39,173 nt of DNA from Opitutales bacterium (lineage in GTDB: Bacteria; Verrucomicrobiota; Verrucomicrobiia; Opitutales; JABSRG01): the NCBI GenBank assembly GCA_028280845.1, contig JANQKZ010000026.1, forward strand, positions 1-39,173, given 5' to 3'. A program made the position numbers and the translations under genes. Of the stretch, positions 5,436-32,494 are shown in pieces; position 1 is the stretch's first letter, and each line of letters opens with the position of its first letter. The notes below the pieces were generated by a model, which worked only from the letters and a program-made list of their open reading frames with translations, made no database searches and was not told the DNA's origin.

Positions 5436-5443
5436 ATTTCGGG

Positions 5444-8556: not shown

Positions 8557-8830
8557 GCGCGAATCTGCAAATGAGGGGATGGAAAGAGGTATAACTTGGG
8601 GTAGAGGAGGGGAGATCCAAGCTTGGGTCAATCATTGGATGTGTTTTTTGGTAAAGCTATTCCGGAGGGTTCTACAAGTCATTTTATGTTGAGGGGGTCA
8701 GTCGGTTTGCGGGGAAGCTCTAAAATTTGGCGGAAGCACGGGATCTGATGAAACCCTGGTTCCTATGCTTGAAACCGTTATCTTAGTCAGCCGAATCTAT
8801 ATTCCCTCCCGCGATCCTGCCGTATAGCGT

Positions 8831-9772
8831 TTACTGTTGGGCTCGGTTCATACCGAGACTGGCTGCTCCCACCGCTGGGGGATGCAAGGGATCCTTCCAT
8901 TGGAGATCACAGTGTTCGTTGCCGGCTGTGGCCTGGTCCACGACATGGATAATAGCCTCCAGGTATTCACGGAACTGGGTCATGCCTCCCACGATGCTCA
9001 CAGGGACCGGATTTCCGGAATATTGCTCAATGGCAGAAAGGATTAATAAGGCGGTCTCCCGGGTGGCCTCCTGGATTTGAAACAAGGCGTATGCATCGCC
9101 CGCATTGGCCAGGTCGAGAAGAATGGTGGCCAGGCCGGCGATTCCGGATTTTCCGAAATCCGCACCATTGATTTTTGATATTATATCCCGCGGGCCCTTT
9201 ACCTCGAGCAAATCCAGGACTGTATCGGCAAGTTGGGTGCGCTCTAAGCGTCCATCGAGCATTCTTACTGCGATCATCAGGAGACGCCTCCCCAAGTCAT
9301 AGCCACTTCCAACGTCATCAACCAGGTGTCCCCATCCTCCGACCCTGATGATTTTCCCCTGGTCATCGATTCCCTGGCAGGAAGAGCCAGTCCCCAGAAT
9401 CGTCAGGATACCCGGACCTCCATTGAAGGCCCCCGCGTGGGCGGTTGCCACATCATGGGTGATACTAATCGATGCCGGGTCGAAGGAAAAAATGGATGGC
9501 AAATTGGAGCGAAGCTCATCGTGGTCCCCATCGGACAGGCCGGCCAATCCGATTCCAATACCCTGGAGCTGGTCTTCGGTTACTGCATTTGGCTCCAGGG
9601 CGAATTGAGTTGCTTCCTTAATATGGTCCAACACCTCCCGCAGGGATTGGATATAGTAGTTCGATGGTCCGGAGATTCCGCGGCAAAGGACATTCAACTG
9701 CTCATCACAAAGCACGGCCTCGGTCTTGGTGGCCCCGCCGTCTATGCCGAGGTAATATTGAGAAGAAGGCAT
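8831..9772 (-). CDS. BadF/BadG/BcrA-family ATPase, N-acetylglucosamine-kinase-like
   Basis: The product is 313 residues with the ASKHA (actin/sugar kinase/Hsp70) fold. Residues 10-17 carry DGGATKTE, the phosphate-1 loop of eukaryotic-type N-acetylglucosamine kinases. ILTILGTGSSCQGID is the phosphate-2 motif, GGWGHLVDDVGSGYDLGRR follows it as in NAGK, and SIVGGMTQF is the adenosine motif. The likely reaction is ATP-dependent phosphorylation of GlcNAc or a similar amino sugar in the cytoplasm. BadF-type relatives also activate radical enzymes, but those carry cysteines for a 4Fe-4S cluster that I do not see here. It sits next to the divergently transcribed sulfatase, consistent with use of amino-sugar polymers. 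Confidence 0.82.
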   Translation of the reverse strand: MPSSQYYLGIDGGATKTEAVLCDEQLNVLCRGISGPSNYYIQSLREVLDHIKEATQFALEPNAVTEDQLQGIGIGLAGLSDGDHDELRSNLPSIFSFDPASISITHDVATAHAGAFNGGPGILTILGTGSSCQGIDDQGKIIRVGGWGHLVDDVGSGYDLGRRLLMIAVRMLDGRLERTQLADTVLDLLEVKGPRDIISKINGADFGKSGIAGLATILLDLANAGDAYALFQIQEATRETALLILSAIEQYSGNPVPVSIVGGMTQFREYLEAIIHVVDQATAGNEHCDLQWKDPLHPPAVGAASLGMNRAQQ

Positions 9773-9889
9773 AATGAAATGACTAAATTCTAATGTCTAA
9801 GCCCTAAACAAATCTAAAATCTGAAATTGAATTAAATTCGACCGAATCTCAGGTCTTGCCGTCGATTGGAGACTTTTGAAAATGGATTT

Positions 9890-11338
9890 ATGATCTGTTT
9901 CCGCTCAATCGTTGTGCTCGTATTCATGCTTATCGGGACCGCCCTGTCCGGGAAGAGCCATCCCAATATTGTCCTGATCTATTTAGACGACCTTGGTTAT
10001 GGCGACCTGGGGTGCTATGGCTCCGAGAAAAATGATACCCCACATGTGGATGAGCTGGCTGCGGAGGGGATGCGATTCACGGATTATTATTCGGCCAGCC
10101 CGGTGTGCACGCCGTCCAGAGCTTCCCTGTTGACTGGTTGTTATCCAGGTCGGGTGGGGTTCGACGCGTTTACGGAGAAGCGGCAGGCCTGGGTTCTTTT
10201 TCCCGGGTTTTCAGAAGGGCTTCACCCGAATGAACTGTTGCTCCCTGAATATCTCAAATGGCATGGGTATGCTACCGCGCATGTGGGTAAATGGCATTTG
10301 GGAGACCAGGTGGAGCACTTGCCTACCCGGCATGGATTTGATTCCTATTATGGCATTCCTTACAGCAACGACATGGCCATCATGCCGCGGCGCCCCAATA
10401 GCCCACCCTTACCGCTGTTGCGCGATGAGGAGGTAATCGCAGAGCAACCGAAGCAGGCCCCCCTGATCCAGAGTTACACGGAAGAGGCCGTGGCCTTCAT
10501 CCGCGATAACCGGGACCGGCCCTTTTTCCTCTATTTTGCCCACATGCATGTGCACCTCCCCCACTATGTGATGGATCCGTTTCTCGAGGCCTCTCGAAAT
10601 GGCCTCTATGGGGCGGCGGTGGCCGCTGTGGATTGGAGTACGGGTGTAATTATGGCAGAGTTGGAGCGCCTCGGGTTAGAGGAGAATACCATTGTAATCT
10701 TCACTTCAGACAACGGAAGCCGGGTAGATGAGCACGGGGGAAGTAATGGCGTATTGCGTGGCCGAAAAGGCCAAACCTGGGAAGGGGGGATGCGAGTGCC
10801 CTGTATCGTGAAGTGGCCTGCCGCAATCAAAGCTGGAAGCACTTCTTCAGAGTTAGTGACAGCGATGGATTTTTATCCGACTATCGCATCCATTCTGGGA
10901 CAACCGCTGGGGGATGAACCAATACGCGATGGTCACGATGTGAGCGCTATCTGGAAGGGCGAACCAGGGGCGCAAAGCCCCTATAGTGCTTTTTATTATT
11001 ATCTGGTGGATGAGTTGCAGGCCATTCGGGTGGGGGACTGGAAATTGCGTTTCGCCAGTGCGGAGGGGCGCCATATCGACCCATCCAACCCGCAGCTCTT
11101 TCACCTGGCGACAGACTTATCTGAGCAGAATGATGTTGCCGCGAATCACCCGGAAATGGTTTTGGAACTGATTCGTAAAATGGAAGCGATGGGGAGCCGG
11201 ATTGGCAACAGGTTCCAGGATACCTTGGGAACTGAGCGCCGGCCTCATGCGGAAGCCGAGGATCCCAGGCCCTTGACTGAGTTTGATTCGGACTACCCCT
11301 ATATCGAGCCCAGTTACCTGTTGGATCAGGCGGGCTAG
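9890..11338 (+). CDS. Secreted arylsulfatase-type sulfatase (S1 family)
   Basis: The 482-residue enzyme has a signal peptide (residues 1-20). The alkaline-phosphatase-like sulfatase core follows: NIVLIYLDDLGYGDLGCYG (metal Asp33 and Asp34) and the CTPSR motif at 73-77, whose Cys73 is the residue oxidised to formylglycine. Further signs are GYATAHVGKWHLG, FTSDNGSR (metal Asp/Asn) and RGRKGQTWEGGMRVP. All catalytic elements are present and the length is normal. It should remove sulfate from sulfated polysaccharides in the periplasm or outside the cell. ATG 9890 is preferred because the signal peptide starts there; a TTG at 9866 is in frame but adds charged residues, and neither has a good ribosome site. 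No sulfatase-maturing enzyme is in the window. Confidence 0.9.
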   Translation: MICFRSIVVLVFMLIGTALSGKSHPNIVLIYLDDLGYGDLGCYGSEKNDTPHVDELAAEGMRFTDYYSASPVCTPSRASLLTGCYPGRVGFDAFTEKRQAWVLFPGFSEGLHPNELLLPEYLKWHGYATAHVGKWHLGDQVEHLPTRHGFDSYYGIPYSNDMAIMPRRPNSPPLPLLRDEEVIAEQPKQAPLIQSYTEEAVAFIRDNRDRPFFLYFAHMHVHLPHYVMDPFLEASRNGLYGAAVAAVDWSTGVIMAELERLGLEENTIVIFTSDNGSRVDEHGGSNGVLRGRKGQTWEGGMRVPCIVKWPAAIKAGSTSSELVTAMDFYPTIASILGQPLGDEPIRDGHDVSAIWKGEPGAQSPYSAFYYYLVDELQAIRVGDWKLRFASAEGRHIDPSNPQLFHLATDLSEQNDVAANHPEMVLELIRKMEAMGSRIGNRFQDTLGTERRPHAEAEDPRPLTEFDSDYPYIEPSYLLDQAG

Positions 11339-12740: not shown

Positions 12741-12905
12741 TCCGAGGGGGTCTCCTTTCGGTCGAAAGTGCAGGATGCAGGATGGGTGATACGGAAGGCA
12801 AGAAGTGAGTTCTTAGCGATGGCGCAAGCTGACTGTGGAATCTTGTGCCTTGCAGCCTTCAAGCGACCCCTTGCCTTTTTATGATTATTCAGTTTCTTGG
12901 GGCAC

Positions 12906-13523
12906 ATGGTGGAAAATAAGGTCCTGGTTCAATTTGCTCATCCTGCCCTTGAGCACTCAAAGGTGCATCGTCGGATGATTCGTGCAGCGTCAAACATACC
13001 TGGAGTGACGATAAATGATTTGTATGAGCTCTATCCGGAGTTTCTGGTAGATGTGGAGCGGGAGAAGTCATTATTGGAGGAACATAATGTGCTGATCTTT
13101 CAATGTCCGGTTTTCTGGTACAGCACCCCGAGTCTTTTAAAAGAATGGCAGGACCTCGTCCTGGAATATGGATGGGCCTATGGGTCGACGGGATTGGCCC
13201 TGAAGGACAAGGCCTTCCTGGCGGCAATCTCTGCAGGTGGCGGAGAAGAAGCCTACTGCCCGACCGGGCGCAACTGCTACTCTATGTATGAATTCCTGAA
13301 GCCCCTCGAGCAGACCGCCCGTCTGTGCAACATGAGGAATATGGATCCCTTTATTTACTTTGGGGCAGTCGGGGCTTCCGACGCTGAATTGGAATTCATG
13401 TGCCATCATTACCGCGATTTTCTGGAGCGGCTCACCCAGGGATATATTACGCTGGATGCCATCGAACGCCAGAGCGGAAAAGACCGGAATATCTTGGATA
13501 TGATGAAGAAAGGAGAGCTGTAA
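12906..13523 (+). CDS. kefF: KefF-like NAD(P)H oxidoreductase, ancillary subunit of the K+ efflux system
   Basis: The 205-residue protein has the flavodoxin-like quinone-reductase fold. Visible signs are NKVLVQFAHPALEHSKVHR at the N-terminus (flavin phosphate loop region), IFQCPVFWYSTPSLLKEWQD as in KefF, and LAAISAGGGEEAYCPTG. KefF-type flavoproteins bind KefC in the cytoplasm and are needed for full activity of the glutathione-gated potassium/proton antiporter during electrophile stress. It stops one base before the kefC start, so the two form an operon. ATG 12906 was chosen; a TTG at 12897 is in frame. KefG or a stand-alone MdaB-like quinone reductase is the alternative, but linkage favours the ancillary role. 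Confidence 0.85.
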   Translation: MVENKVLVQFAHPALEHSKVHRRMIRAASNIPGVTINDLYELYPEFLVDVEREKSLLEEHNVLIFQCPVFWYSTPSLLKEWQDLVLEYGWAYGSTGLALKDKAFLAAISAGGGEEAYCPTGRNCYSMYEFLKPLEQTARLCNMRNMDPFIYFGAVGASDAELEFMCHHYRDFLERLTQGYITLDAIERQSGKDRNILDMMKKGEL

Positions 13524-13524
13524 T

Positions 13525-15429
13525 ATGGACGATAGCTTCCTCTACATGGCTTTTGTCTTTCTGATGGCGGCAGTGATCTCTGTCCCAATAGCCAGTCGCC
13601 TGGGGTTGAGCTCGGTCTTAGGATACCTGGTCGCCGGGGTGATCATTGGTCCCTTTGTTCTGGGATTTATTGGAGAAGAGGGAGAAGACATCATGCATGC
13701 GGCGGAGTTCGGGGTGGTCATGATGCTATTCCTTATCGGTCTGGAACTGCAGCCATCCGTGCTCTGGAAGATGCGGACGTCGGTGTTGGGTTTGGGGGGA
13801 TTGCAGGTCGGCCTGTCGGCTGCCGTTATCTGTGCGGCCTGTATGGTGTTTGGGATGGCTTTCAAGCCGGCCCTGGCGATTGGATTGATTCTCGCGCTGT
13901 CCTCAACGGCGATCGTGGTCCAATCCCTTAACGAAAAGGGGTGGTTCAAGACCAGCGGAGGGCAGGCCGGTTTCAGCATTCTGCTGTTTCAGGATATTGC
14001 CTTTATCCCCATCCTCGCGATGTTACCCTTGTTGGCTCCCGAAGTGCTGGACCCCGAACTGGTAATGGCGGCTGCCCCTGCAGCCGGCGGGGAGGCCGTT
14101 GGAGACCCACAGCCGGCCTGGTTTGTTACCCTGAAAGTTCTGGTGGTTCTGGGAGGAATCGTTGTCGTCGGTCGATATGTCATGCGCTACGTGTTTCGGG
14201 CAATTGCATCGACCGGGATATCTGAGGTATTTACGGCCGCTGCCCTGGCTCTGGTGATCGGAGTCGCCCTCCTGATGAATTTTATTGGTTTGAGCCCTGC
14301 GCTGGGAACCTTCCTGGCTGGCGTCGTTCTGGCGGATAGTGAATATCGGCACGAGCTGGAGAGTGACGTCGAGCCGTTCAAAGGCCTGCTGCTTGGACTC
14401 TTTTTTATCGCGGTTGGAGCCACGGTGGACTTCAATCTGATATTTGAGAATCCGCTGACGATTGCCTTGATTGTACTGGGCTTGATGGTGGGGAAGGCCG
14501 TTGTCCTCAATATTCTCGGCCGGATTTTTGGGTTGAAGGGAGCACAGCTCTGGTTGGTCACGCTTGGCCTGAGTCAGGGAGGCGAGTTCGGGTTTGTTCT
14601 GTTTTCCTATGCAGGGCAGCTCGAGGTTGTGTCCAGAGATACCCTGGGGCTATTCGTGGCCGCTATTGCCGTGACCATGGCCCTGACGCCACTGCTGTTT
14701 GTGTTATATGAGAAGGTCATTCTGCCACGATCCGGGTCGAACCAGAGTGAATCGGATCGGGAGCCGGATGAGGTCGAAGAACAGGGCTCTGTCATCATCG
14801 TTGGCTTTGGACGTTTTGGCCACCTGATTGGACGGATGCTCAGGTCAAAAGGCATTCGTCCCACGATTATGGACAATGATGCCGAACATATCGAGTTCTG
14901 GCGAAACCTTGGGTTTAAGGTCTACTTTGGGGATGCTACGCGGCATGAGCTACTGACAAAGGCGGGAGCCGCCGAGGCCAAGCTGCTGGTGATTACCACC
15001 AACCAGCACGAGACGAATATGCGTATCCTCGAAGCGGCAAAAAAGCACTTTCCCAAGCTAAAGGTGTTTGTGAGCGCGGCGGGGCGGCCGGAAACTTATG
15101 CCCTGATGGAAGGTGGGGCAGACCGGGTTTTCCGGGAATACCTGGGCACCTCACTTCTGATGGGGATTGAGTCGCTGCAGGCACTTGGGGTGCGGCGGTT
15201 CAATGCGCACCGGACTGCCTGGCGTTTAATGCGGTACGACGAAGAACATATGCAGGAAGGATTGCAGATGTGGAAAGACCGACCGACCTATTTCAAGCGG
15301 GCGAAGGAACGCATCGAGCAATTTGAAGAAGGAGAGTTGCGCCAGGTCGCTAAAGAAGTGGCGGGTGATAACGAGGCCTGGGATCCAGGGAAATTTGTCG
15401 AGCGAACCGATGTAGAGCTGGACAAGTAG
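13525..15429 (+). CDS. kefC: Kef-type CPA2 potassium/proton antiporter with TrkA-N domain
   Basis: The 634-residue protein has an N-terminal Na+/H+-exchanger module of about 12 membrane segments (residues 1-405), with SSVLGYLVAGVIIGPFVLGF and SSTAIVVQSL in conserved places. A cytosolic RCK/TrkA-N domain follows from about 420, with SVIIVGFGRFGHLIGRML as the Rossmann dinucleotide loop. A charged C-terminal tail ends it. It exports K+ in exchange for protons and acidifies the cell as protection against electrophiles. The one-base gap to the kefF-like gene and AGGAG at 13511-13515 fix the start. KefB and KefC cannot be separated by eye, and glutathione gating is inferred from the family. Confidence 0.9.
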   Translation: MDDSFLYMAFVFLMAAVISVPIASRLGLSSVLGYLVAGVIIGPFVLGFIGEEGEDIMHAAEFGVVMMLFLIGLELQPSVLWKMRTSVLGLGGLQVGLSAAVICAACMVFGMAFKPALAIGLILALSSTAIVVQSLNEKGWFKTSGGQAGFSILLFQDIAFIPILAMLPLLAPEVLDPELVMAAAPAAGGEAVGDPQPAWFVTLKVLVVLGGIVVVGRYVMRYVFRAIASTGISEVFTAAALALVIGVALLMNFIGLSPALGTFLAGVVLADSEYRHELESDVEPFKGLLLGLFFIAVGATVDFNLIFENPLTIALIVLGLMVGKAVVLNILGRIFGLKGAQLWLVTLGLSQGGEFGFVLFSYAGQLEVVSRDTLGLFVAAIAVTMALTPLLFVLYEKVILPRSGSNQSESDREPDEVEEQGSVIIVGFGRFGHLIGRMLRSKGIRPTIMDNDAEHIEFWRNLGFKVYFGDATRHELLTKAGAAEAKLLVITTNQHETNMRILEAAKKHFPKLKVFVSAAGRPETYALMEGGADRVFREYLGTSLLMGIESLQALGVRRFNAHRTAWRLMRYDEEHMQEGLQMWKDRPTYFKRAKERIEQFEEGELRQVAKEVAGDNEAWDPGKFVERTDVELDK

Positions 15430-15617: not shown

Positions 15618-17204
15618 ATGAAAGGAAATTTGAAAGGTTCCGACGTGCCACCGCACGCGCATAATTCAGATCTGGTCAGACAGATTGAAGAATTCATTGA
15701 GTCCGCGCATCAATATCACCCCGAAGATGATTTGGACCGGCCGGCCTTTGGCGTCACGTTGTATATTGCGAAGACGAAGGTTGAGATGCAGGTGGGGACC
15801 TTCACGGCCTACATCTTTCAGGATATCATCCATAAGGGCTATATCGTTGCGCTGGCTTACGGTGGTTACAACCAAGGGGGTGAATTGTACACCCGGATTC
15901 ACTCGTCCTGCGTCACCAGTGAAACCCTTCGCGGTTGCGATTGCGATTGTGTCCAACAATTAGAAGGAGCCATTCAGAAGATAGCCGAAACCGGAAAAGG
16001 GGTGTTATTTTACTTGCTGCAGGAAGGACGCGGGGTGGGCTACACGGCAAAAGCGCGGGACCGGATGTTAGTTCAAGCGAGCCAGGATACTGTCTCCACC
16101 TTTGATGCCTACCGCATGTTGGGTCTCCGCAAAGACTACCGTCAGTATCGGAACATCCGGGATATCTGTACGATTCTCAGCCTAATGAAGGCGGACTGGG
16201 TGGTGTTAACCAACAATCCTGACAAGGTGGAGGCCTTGCAGGGGTTAGGGCTGAATGTGGCACGGTCCGAATCCCTCGAATATGAACCGCAGCCGTACAA
16301 TTTAGCCTATCTCAAATCAAAGGCAGAATCCGGCCATGAGTTAAAGAATCCTAAGGTGAGCACCCTGGAAAGTGTGCAAACCCCAGAGTTGGTGGTTCCT
16401 TTTAAGCCCCGCGCAATTGAGAACGCCCGGCGCTTTGTCTACATGGCGCGCTACTACCTGCCGATTCGGCCGGTGGATGACAATATCGTGGTCACCCCGG
16501 GAGATTACCAGCAGGTATTTCCGCAAAACGGGATTGATGATATGCTTGACGATCCTGAATCCGGGATCCTCTCGGCAGAGAATTTGAGGAATAACCGGCT
16601 CCTGATTGAAATTGATCGAGCAGTTCTGGACGCCCGACGGTTGCGGAATCCCGAAGATCCTGTCTGCAGACTGCTTTACATGCCGTATTGGTTTAAGGCT
16701 CACGTCTATTTTGATATTGTAAGTGGAAACGACTTCGTGGTGCTGACGCATGGGACAATGAAGATCGATGACTATCCGGTAGTCCGGATTCAAAGTGAGT
16801 CGATCATGAACCGTTTTCCGCTCCAGAATACAGATAATCGCGTGAAGTATATCCGAACCCTGGAGGAGATCATCGACTATGGATCCGGCGCCATCATCTT
16901 AAACTATCATGATGGTCGGGGAGCCGGCTTCGGGGCATTTGCCACGGACCGCATGATGATGCAGGAGGGGAGTTCTGCCAATTCCAAGGAAAGCTACCAG
17001 AAGCTGGGCGTCGGTTATGATGAGCGCGACTATGATGGTCTTTTCATTGTGTTAAAAGAGCACCTGCCTTCTAATCGGATACAGATGGTCATGAATTCGC
17101 CGACCAGCCTGGTGACGAAGCCGGAATATGCTGAGGCGTTAAATCGACATGCATTAGAGGTGGAAAACTGGATATTTCTGGATGAACCTACCACGGAAAG
17201 GTAG
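15618..17204 (+). CDS. Tandem GTP cyclohydrolase II-like protein with altered active site
   Basis: The 528-residue protein holds two RibA-like domains. Domain 1 (about 43-222) keeps RIHSSC with Cys98, then Cys109 and Cys111 at the spacing of the E. coli zinc ligands 54/65/67. It also keeps QEGRG at 135-139 and TNNP at 198-201. The position of E. coli Tyr105, important for normal product formation, is Arg149. Domain 2 (about 350-505) repeats the fold: QSES at 392-395 where the first cysteine should be, HDGRG at 431-435, MNSP at 492-495. It has no zinc cysteines. Canonical RibA has one domain of about 200 residues, and no other rib gene is present. It heads a degradative cluster, so opening of a purine, pteridine or pyrimidine ring is more likely than riboflavin synthesis. 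Fungal URC1 is a precedent. Confidence 0.85.
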   Translation: MKGNLKGSDVPPHAHNSDLVRQIEEFIESAHQYHPEDDLDRPAFGVTLYIAKTKVEMQVGTFTAYIFQDIIHKGYIVALAYGGYNQGGELYTRIHSSCVTSETLRGCDCDCVQQLEGAIQKIAETGKGVLFYLLQEGRGVGYTAKARDRMLVQASQDTVSTFDAYRMLGLRKDYRQYRNIRDICTILSLMKADWVVLTNNPDKVEALQGLGLNVARSESLEYEPQPYNLAYLKSKAESGHELKNPKVSTLESVQTPELVVPFKPRAIENARRFVYMARYYLPIRPVDDNIVVTPGDYQQVFPQNGIDDMLDDPESGILSAENLRNNRLLIEIDRAVLDARRLRNPEDPVCRLLYMPYWFKAHVYFDIVSGNDFVVLTHGTMKIDDYPVVRIQSESIMNRFPLQNTDNRVKYIRTLEEIIDYGSGAIILNYHDGRGAGFGAFATDRMMMQEGSSANSKESYQKLGVGYDERDYDGLFIVLKEHLPSNRIQMVMNSPTSLVTKPEYAEALNRHALEVENWIFLDEPTTER

Positions 17205-17238
17205 GTTTTGATACAAGCACTCCGTCCCCCTTTCCTCT

Positions 17239-18324
17239 ATGGAAGATAATTCAGCACAATCCCTTGGTCACTCATTGCTGAGAGACCGAGTCGCCCTGGC
17301 GCAAACCGAGTTGGTCAAATTGCTGGACCAACCGGAGGGAGCCTTTTCGGGACCTGAGTTCCACATGGATCGGCCGGTAGTCATTACAGGGTTGGGCAGT
17401 TCCGCTGCCCACGCGCAGTTTTTACTGTTTTATCTGCAGGCAGCGGGATTCTCTGCTCGGTATTGTCCGATTACTCAGTTCTTTCATGGTGAGGTTGACC
17501 TCGAGGGGCATACCTTAATTGTTTTTTCCCAGGGATTATCTTCCAACGCGCAAATTGCATTGGGACAACGTCACCAAGCAGAAGGGCTAGTCCTCTTTAC
17601 CTCCTCCACCATGGAGGGACTGAAGACCGCAGGAAAGCCGGATTGCGTTGCGCTGCTCCAGTCTCTGCTGGCTGAGGGCGCTCATATCGTATCCTATCCC
17701 CTGGAGGATGAATATACCCTGTTTGTCCGGGTGGTCGGTCCCCTGTGTGGATTTGGGGCGGTAATCCGTTATTTGCATGACCAGGAAATCGTCCGATTTG
17801 AAATGCCGAGTGGCGAGACCCTCCATCAATTGATGGAACTGGCGGTGACCGATGCGGCGGCTTTTGACCTGGAAGGTCTGCCTATCCCCGACCTCGGTTT
17901 CGATTTTGTTTTTGGAGATCCGCTCTTCCACTTTGGCCAGAATTTGTCGCTGAAATGGGTCGAGGGCGCATTTATGGAACCTCCTGCCTGCATCGATGCC
18001 TTTGATTTCAGTCATGGTTTCTTCCAGCTCCGTACCACTCGGCCCAAACCCGTGTGGCTGTTATCCTCAGAATCAGAATCGGGAGAACCCCTGGATGAAG
18101 CTCTCACTGCCCTTTTTGAATCCGGGGAACTGCCGGGATACTTTCTCAAAGCCCCGGTGACGGCACCCTGGTCAATATTCTATTTCGAGTGCTTCTTCAA
18201 TGCGCTGCTGGTTCGATATATTGTCGAGTACCAGATCGATCAGATCAATTGGCCGGGAAAAGGTCTGGATGGTCCCATGTATAAGCTCAAGCAAGCATAC
18301 TCCTATGATTCGGCAGAAAACTGA
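17239..18324 (+). CDS. Double SIS-domain protein (GlmS-isomerase-like sugar-phosphate enzyme)
   Basis: The 361-residue protein looks like two sugar-isomerase (SIS) domains in tandem. The first begins VVITGLGSSAAHAQFLLFYL and continues TLIVFSQGLSSNAQIALGQ, the equivalents of the G.GSS and S.SG.T loops. The second contains LSLKWVEGAFMEPPACID followed by FDFSHGFFQ, which mirrors the LKE...AEA...HGP pattern of the GlmS/AgaS isomerase half. SIS domains bind phosphosugars. In this cluster it could handle the ribose-phosphate part released when a nucleotide-like substrate is opened. It starts 34 bases after the cyclohydrolase-like gene and overlaps the next gene by 20 bases. Substrate unknown; the fold call is moderate because the serine loops are divergent. 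Confidence 0.65.
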   Translation: MEDNSAQSLGHSLLRDRVALAQTELVKLLDQPEGAFSGPEFHMDRPVVITGLGSSAAHAQFLLFYLQAAGFSARYCPITQFFHGEVDLEGHTLIVFSQGLSSNAQIALGQRHQAEGLVLFTSSTMEGLKTAGKPDCVALLQSLLAEGAHIVSYPLEDEYTLFVRVVGPLCGFGAVIRYLHDQEIVRFEMPSGETLHQLMELAVTDAAAFDLEGLPIPDLGFDFVFGDPLFHFGQNLSLKWVEGAFMEPPACIDAFDFSHGFFQLRTTRPKPVWLLSSESESGEPLDEALTALFESGELPGYFLKAPVTAPWSIFYFECFFNALLVRYIVEYQIDQINWPGKGLDGPMYKLKQAYSYDSAEN

Positions 18325-19126
18325 AAACGGATGGCTCCTCCTCGGGCACCAGGACCATGCCCGGTTAGCCGGTGCCTTCGCCCAGGCATGGGGCAATGCC
18401 ACTTTTATCCGTCCTGAACCGTTTGACCCCATCGGTCAGGCAGTCGCGATGCACGATGACTCCTGGGCGGAGCGGGATGCCCGGCCCCTGGTTACGCCTG
18501 AAGGATTCCCCAGTGCTTTTTCCAAAGAACTCGTGGGGACTTACGATGCATTTGAGGAGATCGACTTAGAAGGCTATCTTCGAGTTCGGGGGCGGGCGAC
18601 TGAGGCGGTGGCGGAGGTGAGTCCGTATGCCGCCATCCTGGTTTCCATGCACACCGTTAATCTATTGACGGAGCAGGCGGATCTGAGTGGTTTGTCGGAA
18701 GATGCCCTTGCGGTTCATGGGGCTTTCGTGGAGGGCCAACGGGAGCGTCAGGAAGCGCTCAAACAAACCGTCCGCGCGTCCACCAGTGATCCGGTTTATG
18801 CGTCGGAGGATACCCTGGCTACGGGGTTTCGTTTCCTGCAATGCTGCGATAGCCTTTCCCTGATGGTGTGCACCGATTTCCCCCATGACTTGCCCCTTCG
18901 GCATGCTCAGCCGACTGCGGGTGGGAAGGCCTTGGAGCTGCGCTATGAGCCCCTGAGCGGGAACCGCTACCGGGTGGCTCCCTGGCCGTTCCGGGAGGAG
19001 GAGACCCTGGACTATGAAATTCCGGCTTTGCGGGTGAAGGGGAATCACTTTGCCGATCAACCCGCCTTCGATGTTGCGTGTGCAGCAGGGGAGCAAATTC
19101 GATTGTCCTTTTCTCTGGTTCCCTAG
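18305..19126 (+). CDS. DUF3891 family protein, function unknown
   Basis: The 273-residue product matches DUF3891 by its start (MIRQKTENGWLLLGHQDHAR) and by DPIGQAVAMHDDSW at 41-54. His15, Asp17, His18 and His50, Asp51, Asp52 recall the H...HD pattern of HD-type metal hydrolases, so a metal-dependent hydrolase is possible, but no function is established. ATG 18305 is chosen since the family begins here; the in-frame extension to 18200 lies wholly inside the SIS gene. It overlaps that gene by 20 bases and stops two bases before the amidohydrolase. Its place inside a catabolic operon is the best clue to its role. Confidence 0.75.
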   Translation: MIRQKTENGWLLLGHQDHARLAGAFAQAWGNATFIRPEPFDPIGQAVAMHDDSWAERDARPLVTPEGFPSAFSKELVGTYDAFEEIDLEGYLRVRGRATEAVAEVSPYAAILVSMHTVNLLTEQADLSGLSEDALAVHGAFVEGQRERQEALKQTVRASTSDPVYASEDTLATGFRFLQCCDSLSLMVCTDFPHDLPLRHAQPTAGGKALELRYEPLSGNRYRVAPWPFREEETLDYEIPALRVKGNHFADQPAFDVACAAGEQIRLSFSLVP

Positions 19127-19128
19127 CA

Positions 19129-20358
19129 ATGCCTGAAATTCGTGATTGTGTGGTCCTGGCCGGAGAGGAGCTGATGCCTCGCCGGTGTCATCGTCTGGTA
19201 TGGGACAGCCACATCGAAGTGATGGAACTGGGGGAACCGGTGGATGAAGCAAAGGACGGGTCATTGGTCCTTCTCCCAGGTTGGATTAATGGACATACGC
19301 ATATTGGGGATTCGATCCTGCCGGATGGTTCCATTGGTTTAACACTGGAAGCGGCCTTCTTTCGTCCAGATGGATTAAAGTATCGAGAATTGGCTAAGGC
19401 GACAGAGCTCGAGATTTCGACCAGCATGCAACATATGCATGAAGTTATGCTTGGGTCGGGAACCGTCTGCCACGTGGATTTCCGCGAACAGGGCGTGGCG
19501 GGCGCTCAACGCTTGCGGTCGGTGAGTGAGTCTACCGGGGTTTCAGCAGTGATCCTTTCGCAGCTGGATCGTTCTCCCTTCGATACAGATACTCTGAATG
19601 CAAACGAAAAGCAGCTTCCATCTTTCAGCCTGGATGAGTTGAGAGAGATTCTGACGGTTGCTGACGGGTTCAGTGAAAGTACGATGAACGATCTGACTGA
19701 TCCGGCCTGGGAGCAGGTGCAGGCGGAAACCCGGTCCGCTGGACGATTGCGGGCTATTCATTGCTTAGAAAGTGAGGACTACCGGAACACCAGCATAGGG
19801 CGGACTGGTAAGGGAGATCTTGAACGTGCGCTTGACTTGTATCAGCCCCACCTGGTGGTGCATATGACCGTGGCGAACTCGTCGGAAATCGAGAGGGTGG
19901 CAGCGGCCGGGATCCCGGTTGTGATCAACCCGCGGGCCAATGCCGCCCTGGGCCTTCCCTTGCCGCCGGTGGCTGAGATGATGCGGGCCGGCGTTCGGCT
20001 GTTGCTGGGGACGGATAATGTAATGCTCAACTCGCCGTCCTTATTTGCTGAACTCGATTTCACCTGGAAGGTGGCCAAAAGCCAGGGAGGAGACCCCGTC
20101 TTCCCCGAACCGCTGGAACTGCTCAAAATGGTCACCGTGCATGGACGTGGCGTTGTTCCCGGTTATTCGGGAATTCTGGAAACAGGCGAACCTGCCACCT
20201 TTTTTGGGCTGGATTTCTCGCAGCCCCCTCTGCTTGGATCCAGGAATATTGCAGCGGCCATAGTGGGTCGTGCAACTCCTCAGCAGGTAGCGTTTACGCT
20301 TGTGAATGGATCCATGCGTTATGAAGGCCAGCCAAACTTTAAGGAGGTGTTTGCGTGA
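19129..20358 (+). CDS. Amidohydrolase-superfamily metal hydrolase, deaminase-like (SsnA/TrzN group)
   Basis: The 409-residue protein has a composite beta domain at the ends around a TIM barrel. The metal site is visible: GWINGHTHIGD with His56 and His58, IHCLE with His211 and Glu214, LVVHMTV with His245, and LLLGTDN with Asp296. The HxH...HxxE...H...D set is that of the cytosine/guanine deaminase, SsnA and s-triazine hydrolase branch, which replaces amino or halide groups on heterocycles. Here it would act on a ring amino group or a ring amide. The cyclohydrolase-like and creatininase neighbours fit that. It begins two bases after DUF3891 ends; a GTG at 19078 is possible but would overlap that gene. 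Confidence 0.82.
   Translation: MPEIRDCVVLAGEELMPRRCHRLVWDSHIEVMELGEPVDEAKDGSLVLLPGWINGHTHIGDSILPDGSIGLTLEAAFFRPDGLKYRELAKATELEISTSMQHMHEVMLGSGTVCHVDFREQGVAGAQRLRSVSESTGVSAVILSQLDRSPFDTDTLNANEKQLPSFSLDELREILTVADGFSESTMNDLTDPAWEQVQAETRSAGRLRAIHCLESEDYRNTSIGRTGKGDLERALDLYQPHLVVHMTVANSSEIERVAAAGIPVVINPRANAALGLPLPPVAEMMRAGVRLLLGTDNVMLNSPSLFAELDFTWKVAKSQGGDPVFPEPLELLKMVTVHGRGVVPGYSGILETGEPATFFGLDFSQPPLLGSRNIAAAIVGRATPQQVAFTLVNGSMRYEGQPNFKEVFA
20341..20348 (+). promoter_or_regulatory. Strong Shine-Dalgarno AAGGAGGT deciding a GTG start
   Basis: AAGGAGGT sits six bases before GTG 20355, inside the last codons of the amidohydrolase gene. It is the best ribosome site in the cluster and supports the GTG start. 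It also suggests high translation of the metal-less creatininase paralogue. Confidence 0.7.
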
Positions 20359-20927
20359 ATCCCCTTTGTCATGGAAAAATGAATACAGGATGGGAACTGC
20401 GTCCATGGCCCTGGTTTAAAGCCTTTCAAAACGATCCGAAGCGAATCGCTATCCTGCCGCTCTATGGGATGGGGAATGGGGGGACGGGCTACCCTTTGGA
20501 TTACGAGGAGCAGATTGGATCAAAGGTTCTCAGCGAGGCCGTTAATTCATGGAACAAGGGCCTGGGTGGCCTGATTACCCTTCCGCCGGTGCGCTATCTC
20601 CCGCCTGCGGGATCCCACTCTCGATTCGGGATCAGTCTTGAAGCTGCGCATCGACAACTGGAAGACATCCTGGTTGGAGTGAAGGGGGCGGGATTTAAGA
20701 AAGTGGTTTTATATTCCACGTCCTCTGCGATGCGTTCCTTTGCTGATGTGGCCGCACGGGACAATCGAATCGCTTTGGCTCTGCAAGTGTTTTGTATTAA
20801 CCTGCTTTCCCTCGGGGTTTGCCTGGGGCGGGATCTTTCGGCGGAACAGCTAGAGCGTGGGGGAAATCTGCTGGTGCAGGGTCTCGAGGAAATTATGCAA
20901 AAGCCTCTGGAAAGGGATATGGTATGA
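20355..20927 (+). CDS. Creatininase-family paralogue lacking the metal ligands
   Basis: The 190-residue protein shares the creatininase fold with its downstream neighbour. AILPLYGMGNGGTGYPLDYE aligns with VIPIGAIEQHGPHLPVGVDS of the neighbour, and GFKKVVLYSTSSAMRSF aligns with GFRSIVLFNHHGGNTPHL. In the first block the ligands Glu, His and Asp become Gly, Gly and Glu; in the second the histidines are gone. It is about 70 residues shorter at the C-terminus. It is therefore probably a non-catalytic subunit or scaffold. It is translationally coupled both ways: GTGA overlap with the amidohydrolase stop and ATGA overlap with the intact creatininase. That tight pairing suggests a hetero-oligomer. 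The reading frame is intact and has its own strong ribosome site, so it is not simply decayed. Confidence 0.7.
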   Translation: MNPLCHGKMNTGWELRPWPWFKAFQNDPKRIAILPLYGMGNGGTGYPLDYEEQIGSKVLSEAVNSWNKGLGGLITLPPVRYLPPAGSHSRFGISLEAAHRQLEDILVGVKGAGFKKVVLYSTSSAMRSFADVAARDNRIALALQVFCINLLSLGVCLGRDLSAEQLERGGNLLVQGLEEIMQKPLERDMV

Positions 20928-21715
20928 GGCGGTATCCATCGCATCCATCCCGTTACCTTCCAGGTCTATCTGAGGAGGAAATCATTCAATGCGCCCGGCA
21001 GCCCGGGGCCACAGCTGTCATTCCTATTGGAGCGATCGAGCAACATGGACCACACCTACCGGTGGGGGTAGATTCCATCCTGGCGGAGGGATGGGTGGAT
21101 GCCGTTCTTGGCCGATTACCCGCGGACTGTCCGGTATTCCTTAGCTTACCGATTCACCTTTCAAAGAGTAACGAGCATCTCGACTTTCCCGGAACGCTAT
21201 CCCTGGATAAGCATACGCTGAGCGCGCTATTCGAGGCTAACGTCAGTCAGTTAATGGCATGGGGGTTCCGTTCCATCGTTCTGTTTAATCACCACGGGGG
21301 GAATACGCCGCATTTGCGGAGCCAGCTCCTGGAGCATCGCCAAAAGGCGCCGGACTGTGTTATTCGATTCCTCGATTTTGAAGATGTGACCTGGGGTATT
21401 TCAGCCCTTGAGCAGCAATACGGGTTTCATGCGGGCGAATTGGAAACCTCCTGGATGCTGCATTTTGCGCCGGAGTTGGTCGATATGTCCAAAGCGGTAA
21501 AGGAATTTCCAGCATGGGCGGATACGCTTCAGCTCTTGCAGCCTGAGGATGCGCCGGCCACGTTTGCCTGGAAATCCAATGACCTATCTGCTTCAGGAGT
21601 CATGGGGGATGCGATCCTCGCAAATGCTGAAAAAGGAAGATTGTGGGTTGAGCAAGCCAGCCAGCACCTGGCAGGTAAATTGGTGGAAATGGTAAAACTC
21701 CAACGTGAATCATGA
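20924..21715 (+). CDS. Creatininase/ArfB-family amidohydrolase
   Basis: The 263-residue enzyme carries a complete metal site. IEQHGPHLPVGVD holds Glu39, His41 and Asp50, NHHGGN holds the bridging histidine, and HAGELETS holds a conserved Glu. The family includes creatininase and MftE. It also includes archaeal ArfB, which hydrolyses the formamide of the formamidopyrimidine made from GTP. With a cyclohydrolase II-like enzyme in the same cluster, an ArfB-like deformylation of a ring-opened intermediate is an attractive but unproved role. The start overlaps the stop of the metal-less paralogue as ATGA, and the gene ends three bases before the formamidase. Longer starts would run inside the paralogue. 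Confidence 0.85.
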   Translation: MRRYPSHPSRYLPGLSEEEIIQCARQPGATAVIPIGAIEQHGPHLPVGVDSILAEGWVDAVLGRLPADCPVFLSLPIHLSKSNEHLDFPGTLSLDKHTLSALFEANVSQLMAWGFRSIVLFNHHGGNTPHLRSQLLEHRQKAPDCVIRFLDFEDVTWGISALEQQYGFHAGELETSWMLHFAPELVDMSKAVKEFPAWADTLQLLQPEDAPATFAWKSNDLSASGVMGDAILANAEKGRLWVEQASQHLAGKLVEMVKLQRES

Positions 21716-21718
21716 GAA

Positions 21719-22651
21719 ATGGGTAAGTCACACTATTTAGATCGGTCGGTTACTATCAGTCGCTGGAACAATGCAGCCGAGCCCCGACTGGAAATCGAAT
21801 CCGGGGATGAGGTTACTTTAGAAATGCATGATGCCAGTGGGGGGCAGGTTCATCCGGGGATGTCGGCGGAGGCTTTCGGGCAAATGGATACGACCCGGAT
21901 TCATGCTCTGACCGGTCCGGTGCTGGTCAAGGGCGCGACCCCCGGGGATGTCCTGAAGGTGGAGATTCTGGAGCATCAACACGAGGGATGGGCCTGGACG
22001 GGCATCATCCCGGGGTTGGGTCTGTTGGATGGGCGGTTTGATCAGCACTTTCTGCATCACTGGGAGCTGGATGAGACGGTCACCCGCAGCATGCCTGGAG
22101 TGACCCTGGATCTGGCTCCCTTTTGTGGGGTGATGGGAGTCCAACGGGAAGAAGCGGGTGAATTCCGTACTCGCCCTCCCGGGCCGTGGGGAGGCAACAT
22201 GGATGTGAAACACCTGGTTGCCGGAACGACCTTATACCTGCCGGTTTTCACGGAAGGGGCGGGGTTTTGTGCGGGAGATTCCCATGGGGCTCAAGGGGAT
22301 GGGGAAGTGTCGATCAATGGCATGGAAGCGCCCATGCGGGCTACGTTCCGCCTTGCGGTGGAAACGGGATGTAGTTTATCAGCCCCGCAAGCGGTGGTGC
22401 CCAGGATTGAGTTATCATCGCGCTACGCAGCGGCGCCTTGGGTGGCCTTCATTGAATCGGACGAAAATCCCCGGACCGCCTGCCAACGAGTTGTAGAGCG
22501 GGCCATGGACTGCCTGGTCGATCGTATCGGTATTAGCCCCGAACAAGCCTATGTTCTGTGTAGTGTGGTGCTGGATATCAAAATCAGTCAGCTGGTGAAT
22601 GTGCCGGTGACGACCGTGACGGGCTATTTGCCTGAAGGGATGTTTGAGTAA
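21719..22651 (+). CDS. Acetamidase/formamidase family amide hydrolase
   Basis: The 310-residue protein matches the FmdA/AmdA family. Early GDEVTLEMHDASGGQVHPGM, central GPWGGNMDVKHLVAGTTLYLP and VFTEGAGFCAGDSHGAQGDGE are all characteristic. The family hydrolyses formamide or acetamide to acid plus ammonia. Length is typical. It follows the creatininase by three bases, so is co-transcribed. In the cluster it would dispose of formamide or a small amide released by ring opening. Substrate choice between formamide, acetamide and a larger ureide cannot be read from sequence. Confidence 0.85.
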   Translation: MGKSHYLDRSVTISRWNNAAEPRLEIESGDEVTLEMHDASGGQVHPGMSAEAFGQMDTTRIHALTGPVLVKGATPGDVLKVEILEHQHEGWAWTGIIPGLGLLDGRFDQHFLHHWELDETVTRSMPGVTLDLAPFCGVMGVQREEAGEFRTRPPGPWGGNMDVKHLVAGTTLYLPVFTEGAGFCAGDSHGAQGDGEVSINGMEAPMRATFRLAVETGCSLSAPQAVVPRIELSSRYAAAPWVAFIESDENPRTACQRVVERAMDCLVDRIGISPEQAYVLCSVVLDIKISQLVNVPVTTVTGYLPEGMFE

Positions 22652-22727
22652 GGATTGAAAATTGGGAATTTAAAATTGAAGATAAGATGCACCAGAAATT
22701 TTGAATCTTTAGTTTTAAATTACTCCG

Positions 22728-23192
22728 ATGAGCCAAATTGAATCCAAACTTGCTGAAATGGGGTATACCCTGCCCGCTCCGCCGGCTCCTGGCGGCATGT
22801 ATCTTCCTTATCGCCGCCATGGAAGTGTGTTGTATCTCGCCGGAGTCATCTGTGTGAAAGACGGAGTGATGACACATACCGGGCAGGTCGGGGATATTCA
22901 AACGGTGGAGACAGGATTTGAAGGCGCGCAAATTTGTGCGCTAAATGCTCTCTCCAATATTAAGGCGGCGATTGGCGATTTAGATAAGGTGGAGTCCTTC
23001 TTGTATGTGGGAGGGTATGTGAATGCCGTGTCCGGATTTGCCCAGAGTCCTCAGGTGATCAATGGGGCGAGCGAGTTATTCAACACCTTGTATGGGGATC
23101 GGGGTCGCCATGCGCGAGCCGCGGTGGCTGTAGCGGGTTTACCGGCGGATTCCACCGTGGAAATCCAAGTGAATGTCGCCGTGATGGATTGA
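22728..23192 (+). CDS. RidA (YjgF/YER057c/UK114) family protein
   Basis: The 154-residue protein has the RidA fold. LYLAGVICVKDG and TGFEGAQICALNALSNIKAA form the core strands and helix, and ARAAVAVAGLPADSTVEIQV carries Arg130 at the place of the conserved RidA arginine that binds carboxylates. RidA enzymes hydrolyse reactive enamines and imines to ketones plus ammonia. At 154 residues it belongs to a longer subgroup than E. coli RidA (about 128). It lies 76 bases after the formamidase, the spacer being AT-rich degenerate repeat. A role in clearing unstable amino intermediates of the pathway is likely by analogy with RutC of the Rut pathway. Confidence 0.85.
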   Translation: MSQIESKLAEMGYTLPAPPAPGGMYLPYRRHGSVLYLAGVICVKDGVMTHTGQVGDIQTVETGFEGAQICALNALSNIKAAIGDLDKVESFLYVGGYVNAVSGFAQSPQVINGASELFNTLYGDRGRHARAAVAVAGLPADSTVEIQVNVAVMD

Positions 23193-23279
23193 TTCGCGAT
23201 GCGGAATGAAGTTTGTTCCTCTAATCGTTTCTCCTTCTGATAAAGAATCCCGGATCCCGAAACTCGGATCCATAACCAT

Positions 23280-24473
23280 ATGAATTTGGAAAACACGTTT
23301 AACTATTGGCAGTCCCTGGACGATGATGCCTGGGTAGCCGAGGTGCGGAGGAGGCTGGATACCCTTTCTGACTTTGAACGCCGGGCAGTGATTGCCCATG
23401 AGTTGACCGAAACGGAATGGCGCGAGCAATTGGCGGAATCGCGTGGACCTCTGGCCCGGATACCGACGGGCCTGAAAGATTTATTTGATCTACAGGGGAC
23501 ACCGACTACAGCGTCATCTACCTTTTTGACCGAGGTGCGCGGCGATGTCGCAACGGAGGACAGCGAGATCGTTATGGCTTTAAGGCAGGCTGGGGCGGTG
23601 TTTGTGGCGAAGACACACCTGGTGGAGTTTGCCTATGGTTTGGATGGGCGGAATCCACACTATGGCGATTGCCCTAATCCAGTGGTGCCGGGACGGGTAT
23701 CCGGCGGGAGCAGTAGTGGGTCCGCCTTTTTAGTCGGCCGTGGCATCCTGCCTTTTACCATTGGTACCGACACCGGTGGCTCGGTCCGGGTGCCTGCTTC
23801 CTTCTGCGGGGTCTATGGGTATCGGGCCCACGCGCATTGGAAAATGGAAGGGTGTTTTCCGCTGGCTCCCAGTTTTGATACGGCAGGATGGTTTGTGAGT
23901 AATGAGGATGATCTGCGCCTCACGCTGGATGCCATGGAAGCGCCCGGTCGAGAAATCCTTAAATCGGATAGGGGTGTAGGCCTGGACTTTTTTGATGACA
24001 CTTATTCCGGCCCCGTTAATGGGTGTTTGAGTCAGTTTCATTGTGCACCTGGAGACATTTCGGGCCTTCGTGAGCGAACCGATAAGTGGGCTGCCGCGTA
24101 TTCGGTGTTGCAAAGCACAGAAGCCTACCAGGTTCATGCGGAGTGGTTGGATTTCCATAAGGAACGTTATGACCCGGTTGTCTGGCAACGGATTGATCGG
24201 GCTCGCACCTGGACTCAAAAGGATTGGGATATGGCCACGGAGGGGGTTATGGATTACCGGGCCTGGCGGGATACCATGAAGCAAGAGTTTGATTACGTTG
24301 GATTACGCGCTGCGCCCACACCTCCACCGGATCCGGAGGCGGCTTTAACGGAACCCATCCGGCATGGGACCCTCGCGGCCGGAGCGATTGGCAGTATGGC
24401 CGCACTACCGGTGATCATCTTTCCCATCCCCGGAATGGATGAACCCTTAGGCGCACAGTTTGTGGTGCTCTAG
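23280..24473 (+). CDS. Amidase-signature family hydrolase
   Basis: The 397-residue enzyme shows the Ser-Ser-Lys triad of amidase-signature proteins. These are Lys66 in PTGLKDLFD, a cis-serine in VSGGSSSGSA (about 144-145) and nucleophile Ser168 in GTDTGGSVRVPA. Relatives include AtzF/allophanate hydrolase, GatA and plant indoleacetamide hydrolase. At 397 residues it is at the short end of the family, and it begins almost directly with the core. It is the last plus-strand gene of the cluster, 87 bases after RidA, and could finish the pathway by hydrolysing an open-chain amide. Whether it shares the promoter of the first genes is not certain because of the spacers around RidA. Confidence 0.85.
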   Translation: MNLENTFNYWQSLDDDAWVAEVRRRLDTLSDFERRAVIAHELTETEWREQLAESRGPLARIPTGLKDLFDLQGTPTTASSTFLTEVRGDVATEDSEIVMALRQAGAVFVAKTHLVEFAYGLDGRNPHYGDCPNPVVPGRVSGGSSSGSAFLVGRGILPFTIGTDTGGSVRVPASFCGVYGYRAHAHWKMEGCFPLAPSFDTAGWFVSNEDDLRLTLDAMEAPGREILKSDRGVGLDFFDDTYSGPVNGCLSQFHCAPGDISGLRERTDKWAAAYSVLQSTEAYQVHAEWLDFHKERYDPVVWQRIDRARTWTQKDWDMATEGVMDYRAWRDTMKQEFDYVGLRAAPTPPPDPEAALTEPIRHGTLAAGAIGSMAALPVIIFPIPGMDEPLGAQFVVL

Positions 24474-24511: not shown

Positions 24512-25180
24512 TTAACCCTTTGGCGAGATTCGGTAGGCGCAGCGTCGGTCGCCGGCCAGAATGTGCTCGGTCCGTTCCACGCGGACGGATTTTCCGAGCG
24601 TTTTTTGAAAGATTTCTAATTCGTTATGGCAAAGACTCTGGCAGGTTCTGGCCGCATCACATATCGGGCAGTGATTTTCTACAAACAAGAGGGCCCCATC
24701 CTTGAGCCGTTCTACCTCTGCCATATATCCTTCCAGGGTACGGGCGGCCGCGAGGGACTTGGCTTTAGCGGCTAAGGTTTTTTTATCTTTGGCAGCCTCT
24801 TTGTATTTTTCGGTAAGTTGTTGGCCCCGGGATTTCAGCAGGGCCTGCATCCCTTCATCCCCGAAGGTGGATCGAATGTTCCCCAGGATATCGACCATCA
24901 GGTCATTGTGCCGGTCAGGAAATAAGCGATCCGCCCGAGGCGTCAGTTTCCATCGTCGTTTGGGACGCCCCCGGCCATGTCCGTGATCCTCGAAGGTTAC
25001 CAATTTTTCTTCCTCGAGGGCATAGAGATGTTGACGGATGGCCATGCCGGTGAAGCCTAATTCCCCACTGATTTCCTCTGCTGCGCTCGCTCCGGAGGTT
25101 TTCAGATAGTCCAGGATCTTTCGCCGCGTGACAAAGGCGGGTTGTTTGGGGTTCTTGCGAGCGGGAGGCTTCAGGGCCAT
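24512..25180 (-). CDS. SufR-like winged-helix regulator with C-terminal cysteine cluster
   Basis: The 222-residue protein has an N-terminal winged helix-turn-helix (about 17-80, RRKILDYLKTSGASAAEEIS and GFTGMAIRQHLYALEEEKLV, then a GRGRPKRRWKL wing). The C-terminal part carries Cys171, Cys174, Cys180, Cys184 and Cys214. Cys171 and Cys184 are separated by twelve residues, the spacing of the first two cluster ligands in SufR, and VERTEHILAGDRRCAYRI resembles the SufR end. SufR binds an iron-sulfur cluster and represses suf genes; no suf gene is here. It may sense redox or iron for other targets. It is convergent to the amidase gene, so control of that cluster is possible but not shown. Confidence 0.75.
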   Translation of the reverse strand: MALKPPARKNPKQPAFVTRRKILDYLKTSGASAAEEISGELGFTGMAIRQHLYALEEEKLVTFEDHGHGRGRPKRRWKLTPRADRLFPDRHNDLMVDILGNIRSTFGDEGMQALLKSRGQQLTEKYKEAAKDKKTLAAKAKSLAAARTLEGYMAEVERLKDGALLFVENHCPICDAARTCQSLCHNELEIFQKTLGKSVRVERTEHILAGDRRCAYRISPKG

Positions 25181-32379: not shown

Positions 32380-32413
32380 AATCGGACTCACAAAGAGAGT
32401 GTGGCTAAATCAT

Positions 32414-32434
32414 TAACTATGCGAGACTTAGTTA
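32414..32434 (-). promoter_or_regulatory. Inverted repeat TAACTA-N9-TAGTTA before the barrel gene
   Basis: TAACTA at 32414-32419 and TAGTTA at 32429-32434 are perfectly complementary with a 9-base gap, about 35-55 bases upstream of the minus-strand start. The spacing suits a two-fold symmetric regulator site. No promoter boxes are convincing. Confidence 0.3.
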
Positions 32435-32494
32435 GCATCTATTAGGGGGCTCCTTTTGTGCTTTTTTAGTTGAAGGGGCAGGGGGCATTTTTCC

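Follow-up and report, generated by a model that had tools for sequence, protein, structure and literature searches.

Nine plus-strand open reading frames (A-I; positions 15618-24473) were found to form a real functional unit in the window, the 39,173-nucleotide contig of an Opitutales bacterium analysed here. The set probably encodes a hydrolytic, nucleotide-level pathway of purine catabolism, a reading to which we assign a probability of roughly 0.66. The known bacterial catabolism of purines proceeds via xanthine and mostly via uric acid, and requires molybdenum or selenium hydroxylases. The more far-reaching proposal, that the genes provide a complete, non-oxidative route from the nucleoside monophosphate, appears evenly poised. 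Such a route would employ a paralogue of GTP cyclohydrolase II (GCH2) to hydrolyse the imidazole ring and a SIS enzyme to recover ribose 5-phosphate, and would turn purines into pentose phosphate, ammonia, and formate, bypassing xanthine dehydrogenase, uric acid, and allantoin.

An open reading frame check of the window recovered all nine genes in the order and on the strand given by the first-pass annotation (A, B, C, D, E, F, G, H, I). With corrected starts, A and B are separated by 34 bp, B and C overlap by 20 bp, C and D lie 2 bp apart, D-E and E-F each overlap by 4 bp, and F and G are separated by 3 bp. The first seven genes are thus tightly packed, as had been noted, either overlapping or 2-34 bp apart, and gaps of 76 bp (G-H) and 87 bp (H-I) follow. 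The gene order had also been read as the order of reactions; this interpretation was dropped because the order is shuffled between genomes, and it is the set, not the order, that is conserved.

A phyletic survey of 288 Verrucomicrobiota genomes was combined with a survey of 95 A loci. Full-length tandem A was found in 15 of the 288 genomes, and B, C, and D each in 14; these 14 are the same genomes throughout and all fall within the 15 A carriers, including those whose genes are dispersed and unlinked. One genome (G080) has A and the permease without B, C, and D. Congeners of carriers have none of the four genes A-D (G039/G048 versus G108; G210 versus G131). The co-occurrence of A and B has a hypergeometric probability of 7e-23 when phylogeny is ignored. 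B lies no more than 10 kb from A in 55 of the 95 loci, and no B is found in that range in the remaining 40. The first-pass annotation had proposed a nitrogen-ring catabolic route opened by the GCH2-like enzyme, and had named a lack of conserved linkage in related genomes as a refutation. Since the genes proved to be strictly co-inherited and often linked, the general idea survives, with the substrate and each of the steps remaining putative.

Gene A (15618..17204) encodes a tandem GCH2-like protein of 528 residues, with two PF00925 stretches in a Pfam profile search. The N-terminal GCH2 domain (about 15768-16265) keeps the GCH2 active-site residues except Tyr105, which is Arg149 here, and the C-terminal GCH2-like domain (about 16692-17111) lacks the zinc cysteines. 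In 13 aligned A proteins, the zinc cysteines and the catalytic Asp126/Arg128 of GCH2 are preserved as the invariant residues C98, C109, C111, D173, and R175, and the zinc motif is present in 95 of 95 A proteins. The same 95 proteins all carry arginine at the switch position, whereas Tyr105 is kept in E. coli GCH2 and in 15 of 15 canonical relatives. Residues that handle the GTP triphosphate are retained, and GTP may therefore still be the substrate; because the switch tyrosine is replaced by arginine, A probably stops at the formamidopyrimidine nucleotide. Like RibA and Streptomyces SCO6655, A has intact zinc and catalytic residues, and it shares with SCO6655 a changed switch residue, which, according to Spoonamore et al. 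in 2006 (cited in PMC3509567), reportedly leaves the formamidopyrimidine. A differs from these proteins in having Arg rather than Tyr or Met, a second, degenerate GCH2 domain, and a purine catabolic context, and its genome encodes a separate, canonical RibBA (PF00925, 132 bits, G000:C18:47148-47597). A search of plasmids for A returned ordinary RibA-type partial matches only.

Gene B (17239..18324; 361 residues) was assigned as a double-SIS protein of the phosphosugar isomerase/deaminase fold on the basis of its fold and conserved residues. It has no Pfam or NCBIfam match, and sequence comparison with solved structures gave nothing significant; fold comparison alone found a match. The predicted structure (pLDDT 80) has a double-SIS fold (Foldseek 4e-11), and aligned with the isomerase domains of GFAT/GlmS with a VIA Z of about 26 over about 315 residues. 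Glu242 and His259-Gly260 are invariant in 13 B proteins, and Lys341 is also conserved. E242, H259, and K341 resemble the GlmS catalytic set, and the motif suggests equivalence with GlmS E488/H504. B thus shares its fold and Glu-His-Lys motif pattern with the GlmS isomerase domain, NagB-II, and the FraB deglycase, but is only about 10-15% identical to them, and its presumed substrate is a ribosylamine 5-phosphate.

The product of E (20355..20927) was identified through its fold, a gene fusion, and its profile as a creatininase-fold protein without the usual metal-binding motifs. It has no match in Pfam or NCBIfam, and its predicted structure, with a pLDDT of only 72, matches creatininase at 12-15% identity (Foldseek 2e-5). 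The earlier calls of B as a double SIS protein and of E as a creatininase agree with these predicted folds. E is sometimes fused to F, as in a natural fusion at L166:9674-11254, and is likely to be a partner of F. The F protein (20924..21715; start corrected from 20819; PF02633, 200 bits) is a creatininase-family amidohydrolase with an intact motif (IEQHG...D / HHGGN), in which Glu122, which follows His120 in creatininase proper, is missing (NHHGGN versus NGHYEN). F is a candidate formamide hydrolase. The first-pass annotation had drawn a chemical link from a GCH2-like enzyme to a formamide hydrolase of the creatininase family; a bacterial precedent for this link is BrbF, a creatininase-family enzyme that deformylates the GTP-derived formamidopyrimidine nucleotide (PMC9478397). 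Unlike BrbF and ArfB of riboflavin synthesis, F, whose activity is putative, has a metal-less paired subunit and belongs to a catabolic set.

Of the remaining genes, C (18305..19126; start corrected from 18200) encodes a DUF3891 protein, which matches PF13030 with 148 bits. D (19129..20358; start corrected from 19078) is an amidohydrolase of the deaminase/chlorohydrolase superfamily, with PRK07213 as its best NCBIfam model, and is a candidate aminopyrimidine deaminase. G (21719..22651; 310 residues; PF03069) is an FmdA/acetamidase-family amidase that matches acetamidase/formamidase structures, and I (23280..24473; PF01425) is an amidase-signature protein in which GGSSSGS is present. H (22728..23192; PF14588), previously called RidA, does belong to the Rid family, but is nearest to the PA0814/3d01 group; it is a candidate imine/enamine hydrolase.

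We infer the following steps and their order. Purine bases would enter via an AZG-type permease, be interconverted by deaminases, and be coupled to PRPP by a phosphoribosyltransferase of the hypoxanthine/xanthine type to give the nucleotide, whose imidazole ring would be opened hydrolytically by the GCH2 paralogue A. Either F, together with the pseudo-enzyme E as its partner, or G would remove formate. B, whose fold relates it to Amadori deglycases and to deaminases of amino sugars, would split the ribosylamine into ribose 5-phosphate and a free diaminopyrimidine, which D would deaminate. G, I, and possibly C would then hydrolyse cyclic and linear amides, and H would clear imine products. The presumed substrates (adenine, guanine, hypoxanthine, and xanthine) are those of oxidative purine degradation by xanthine dehydrogenase, uricase, and allantoin, but the proposed route has no oxidation step and would use nucleotide-level intermediates rather than the free base. 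XdhB of xanthine dehydrogenase was found above the cut-off in none of the 15 carriers, with the positive control detected; allantoinase-like amidohydrolases are present in all 15 at 192-261 bits, below the cut-off of 358. If correct, the pathway would be an equivalent, for purines, of the URC pathway in yeast. It would also provide functions for DUF3891, for a metal-less partner of a creatininase, and for a new family of double-SIS proteins, and would account for the possible use of purines by many Opitutia without xanthine dehydrogenase. Nothing on the gene set was found in the open-access literature searched on DUF3891, GCH2-like purine catabolism, the URC route, and purine use by Opitutales, in keeping with the earlier statement that it is undescribed, most subscription journals being beyond the reach of the search.

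The purine substrate class was inferred from the genomic context of relatives, which narrows it. Purine genes lie near A in about 40 of the 95 loci, and the recurrent neighbours are an AZG-type permease, HGPRT/XPRT, adenine deaminase, adenosine-deaminase-type proteins, and NUP (the purine nucleoside permease/phosphorylase family). The AZG-type adenine/guanine permease is found at 26 of the 95 loci, in 24 of them within 2.5 kb of A and usually adjacent; it matches plant AZG1 (2e-70) and AZG2 (6e-52), and no match to uracil carriers was obtained up to E 1. A 21-kb locus (L049) contains D, E, F, G, I, H, A, and B together with HGPRT, NUP, the permease, an Ada-type protein, and adenine deaminase, and in two others (L071 and L102) HGPRT stands between B and D in the operon order A-B-HGPRT-D. 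TonB receptors of the outer membrane and purine permeases of the inner membrane are linked to A loci, and two genomes have a cytosine deaminase near D. The window cluster has no purine transporter or salvage gene beside it, its purine context coming from relatives; an AZG-type permease and HGPRT are present on other contigs of the same genome. A search for riboswitches as a clue to the ligand found no Rfam family except a tRNA in the window and seven relatives. CTP synthase adjoins A in five loci, apparently a case of local synteny among related MAGs.

This context bears directly on a URC-like pyrimidine route, in which uracil would be converted to UMP, a GCH2-like protein would open the pyrimidine ring, and downstream amidases would finish the breakdown. 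In base catabolism the GCH2 homologue that has been described is URC1, to which A is similar in concept; as far as described, it too begins the breakdown of a nucleobase after phosphoribosylation. The URC pathway (URC1-6) is that of uracil catabolism in Lachancea kluyveri (PMC7530994). URC, however, has uracil as its substrate and depends on URC4 (DUF1688), which was found in none of the 15 A carriers in a search without a positive control. A has a tandem architecture, belongs to a different subfamily, and is accompanied by a different downstream set. A scores only 19 bits, against a cut-off of 403, with PRK07198, which we take to be the model covering URC1, and this is the weakest of its GCH2 models in NCBIfam. 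The AZG-type permease, the hypoxanthine/xanthine-type phosphoribosyltransferases, and the recurrence of adenine deaminase and NUP near A also speak against a pyrimidine route, which we consider improbable.

Similarly doubtful is a biosynthetic cluster, in which A would divert GTP to a formamidopyrimidine, the precursor of a product resembling flavins, pterins, or toxoflavin. Streptomyces has GCH2 paralogues whose switch residue is changed, toxoflavin synthesis begins with GCH2, and a RibD-C-like reductase is present at one locus (L043). Genes for ligases, methyltransferases, NRPS/PKS, and lumazine/riboflavin synthases nevertheless do not recur among the frequent neighbours of A, where importers, base deaminases, and several amidases are found instead. 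Removal of damaged nucleotides or of reactive riboflavin or pterin intermediates would also employ Rid, formamidase, and SIS functions, and ribosylaminopyrimidine hydrolases are known in metabolite repair; such a role is quite unlikely, since a nutrient pathway better fits both the linkage to TonB receptors and purine permeases and a distribution that is patchy, at 15 of 288 genomes. A chance gathering of unrelated hydrolases, to which the variable gene order might point, is contradicted by the identical A-B-C-D profiles and is highly improbable. Among the best 80 of 96 A matches, the named, non-MAG carriers include Coraliomargarita sp. SDUM461004 and Cerasicoccus maritimus.

The nine plus-strand genes A to I (15618-24473) were found to form a conserved unit. 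All nine open reading frames that the first-pass annotation had described are present in the window, which lies on contig C30 of a 4.79-Mb genome. The tight packing claimed for the first seven genes was upheld: once the starts of C, D and F are corrected to 18305, 19129 and 20924, neighbours in this series either overlap or are separated by 2-34 bp, which fits a single transcript. Family scans identified two PF00925 stretches in A (GTP-cyclohydrolase-II-like, GCH2), DUF3891 in C, an amidohydrolase (PRK07213 nearest) in D, and creatininase-family, FmdA-family, Rid-family and amidase proteins in F, G, H and I, respectively. B and E had no match in these scans, and their structures were predicted from alignments that included their orthologues. 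The predicted fold of B is double-SIS (Foldseek, 4e-11), in agreement with its earlier naming as a SIS protein; the model matches the GFAT/GlmS isomerase domain (VIA Z 26, ~315 residues) and also NagB-II, with FraB deglycase further down the list. The model of E, of moderate confidence only, has the creatininase fold, and the usual metal-binding motifs are absent, as expected for the metal-less creatininase proposed.

Genes A to E were searched in one set of 288 genomes of the phylum. Full-length A occurs in 15 genomes (54-60% identity), whereas B, D (counted at E<1e-60) and DUF3891 each occur in 14, the identical 14, all inside the 15 with A. E was detected in all 15, with four further weak matches. 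The probability of the A-B overlap by chance is ~7e-23 in a hypergeometric test, which ignores kinship. The carriers belong to several families in at least two classes; two congeners of carriers lack all four genes A to D (G108, compared with G039 and G048; G131, compared with G210). Co-inheritance holds without linkage: in G039, G048, G085, G088, G143, G260 and other genomes, A-B lie at one site and C, D, E and F, among others, at a second. Linked sets in G157, G210, G045, G140 and several MAGs have shuffled gene orders. The suggested co-occurrence of A with B and DUF3891 therefore stands, A to D sharing 14 genomes and often being linked, but the meaning read into gene order does not, since content is conserved and order varies.

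When contigs of bacterial genomes were searched with a profile, the best 80 of 96 matches were all from Verrucomicrobiota or Kiritimatiellae/PVC/unclassified MAGs, judged by record descriptions. Genome G080, in which A lies at locus L047 and an AZG-type permease is also encoded, lacks B, C and D and represents either a reduced version or another use of A. Two MAGs have two A genes each (L067/L102 and L097/L098) with differing neighbours, possibly paralogues with different partners. In G045, an extra A copy (L048; C1:483292-484124), with a Rid gene close by, is broken across several frames and apparently degraded, and a RibD-C-like reductase gene (L043:16791-17483) lies at the end of the cluster.

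Neighbours were clustered over 95 loci with A, some genomes being counted twice. B was present in 55 and not nearby in 40, contigs often being short. Amidase (27), a PF00860 permease (26, adjacent in 23), Rid (24), TonB receptors (17), DUF3891 (16), an adenosine-deaminase-type protein (13), HGPRT-type PRTases (9), NUP (purine nucleoside permease/phosphorylase family; 9) and adenine deaminase (7) were also found. The neighbour permease matched the Arabidopsis adenine/guanine permease AZG1 (2e-70), and no uracil carrier matched up to E 1. By score, the PRTases are of the hypoxanthine or the xanthine type. Three genomes in which D is separate from A also have adenine deaminase next to D. The clearest example is L049, from a MAG whose A protein branches next to that of the window in a tree of A; this locus has D-E-F-G, I, H, A, B, HGPRT, NUP, an AZG permease, an adenosine-deaminase-type protein and adenine deaminase within 21 kb. 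In L071 and L102 the operon order is A-B-HGPRT-D, successive genes overlapping or lying very close together. In the window genome, an AZG-type permease lies beside transport genes on contig C7, and HGPRT on C62. The neighbours in relatives, from which the substrate class is drawn, point to purine metabolism.

A URC-type route is not clearly indicated, as URC4 was not found in the 15 carriers in a search without a positive control. Oxidative purine degradation is, as far as tested, not the route: no XdhB scored above cut-off in the 15 carriers, the positive control having worked, and allantoinase-like matches in carriers were below cut-off. A role in riboflavin synthesis was rejected, canonical RibBA being located elsewhere in the genome.

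The favoured reading is nucleotide-level purine breakdown by ring hydrolysis. A retains equivalents of GCH2 R49, C54, C65, C67, E92, D126, R128, T149 and K154; the zinc cysteines have been lost from its C-terminal GCH2-like domain. Arg149 of A stands in the place of E. coli Tyr105, reportedly the switch residue in the study by Spoonamore et al. (2006), which PMC3509567 cites. All 95 A proteins have Arg at this site, where E. coli and 15 canonical relatives have Tyr. An alignment to PDB sequences gives the same residue pairing and agrees with the E. coli residues used. In SCO6655, Met in place of the Tyr reportedly leads to release of a formylated pyrimidine. Because the switch Tyr is replaced and catalytic residues are kept, A would open the imidazole ring and leave the formamide on (step 1). 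Its substrate would be among IMP, XMP, GMP and GTP, with XMP, via 5-amino-6-ribosylaminouracil phosphate, the simplest on paper only.

Such a formamide would require a hydrolase next (step 2), for which F is the candidate deformylase, probably with E as partner, and G the alternative. Like F, BrbF of Sinorhizobium belongs to the creatininase family, and it performs this deformylation (PMC9478397), an activity that is putative for F. F carries HHGGN where creatininase has HYEN. E is the likely partner since its gene adjoins that of F and since L166 of G088 (9674-11254) carries a natural 526-aa fusion of metal-less E and intact F; second E-type matches occur in long open frames in several other carriers. 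Double-SIS enzymes work at a phosphosugar, on amino-sugar and Amadori substrates, and, by matching to this chemistry, B may free ribose 5-phosphate from the ribosylaminopyrimidine (step 3). D would then deaminate, G and I would hydrolyse amides, and H would clear imines (step 4).

A fumarylacetoacetate-hydrolase-family gene (PF01557), absent beside the window cluster, recurs in L034, L035, L039, L043, L044, L059, L102 and L155 and may act late in the route, in a hydrolysis or decarboxylation. An MFS transporter lies beside purine genes in L167 (5993-7384) and L153 (6236-7585); the L153 copy is weakly similar to oxalate/formate antiporters. Formate would be among the expected products.

Just upstream of the cluster (12897-15429), the gene for a flavodoxin-fold quinone reductase ends within 2 bp of the next one, whose 634-aa product, read by eye, resembles a KefB/C-type K+/H+ antiporter, making the pair KefG-KefB-like. 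Just downstream, a convergent SufR-like regulator gene (24512-25180, minus strand) matches TIGR02702 at 119 bits, below cut-off. Two ORFs of 296 aa (minus) and 581 aa (plus) at 31501-34240 have no Pfam match. An ExbB/TonB/DUF3450/TPR energy-transduction cluster occupies 3358-8631 (minus strand), and sets that by eye look similar adjoin purine genes in L153 (G039) and in L167 on contig C7 of the window genome.
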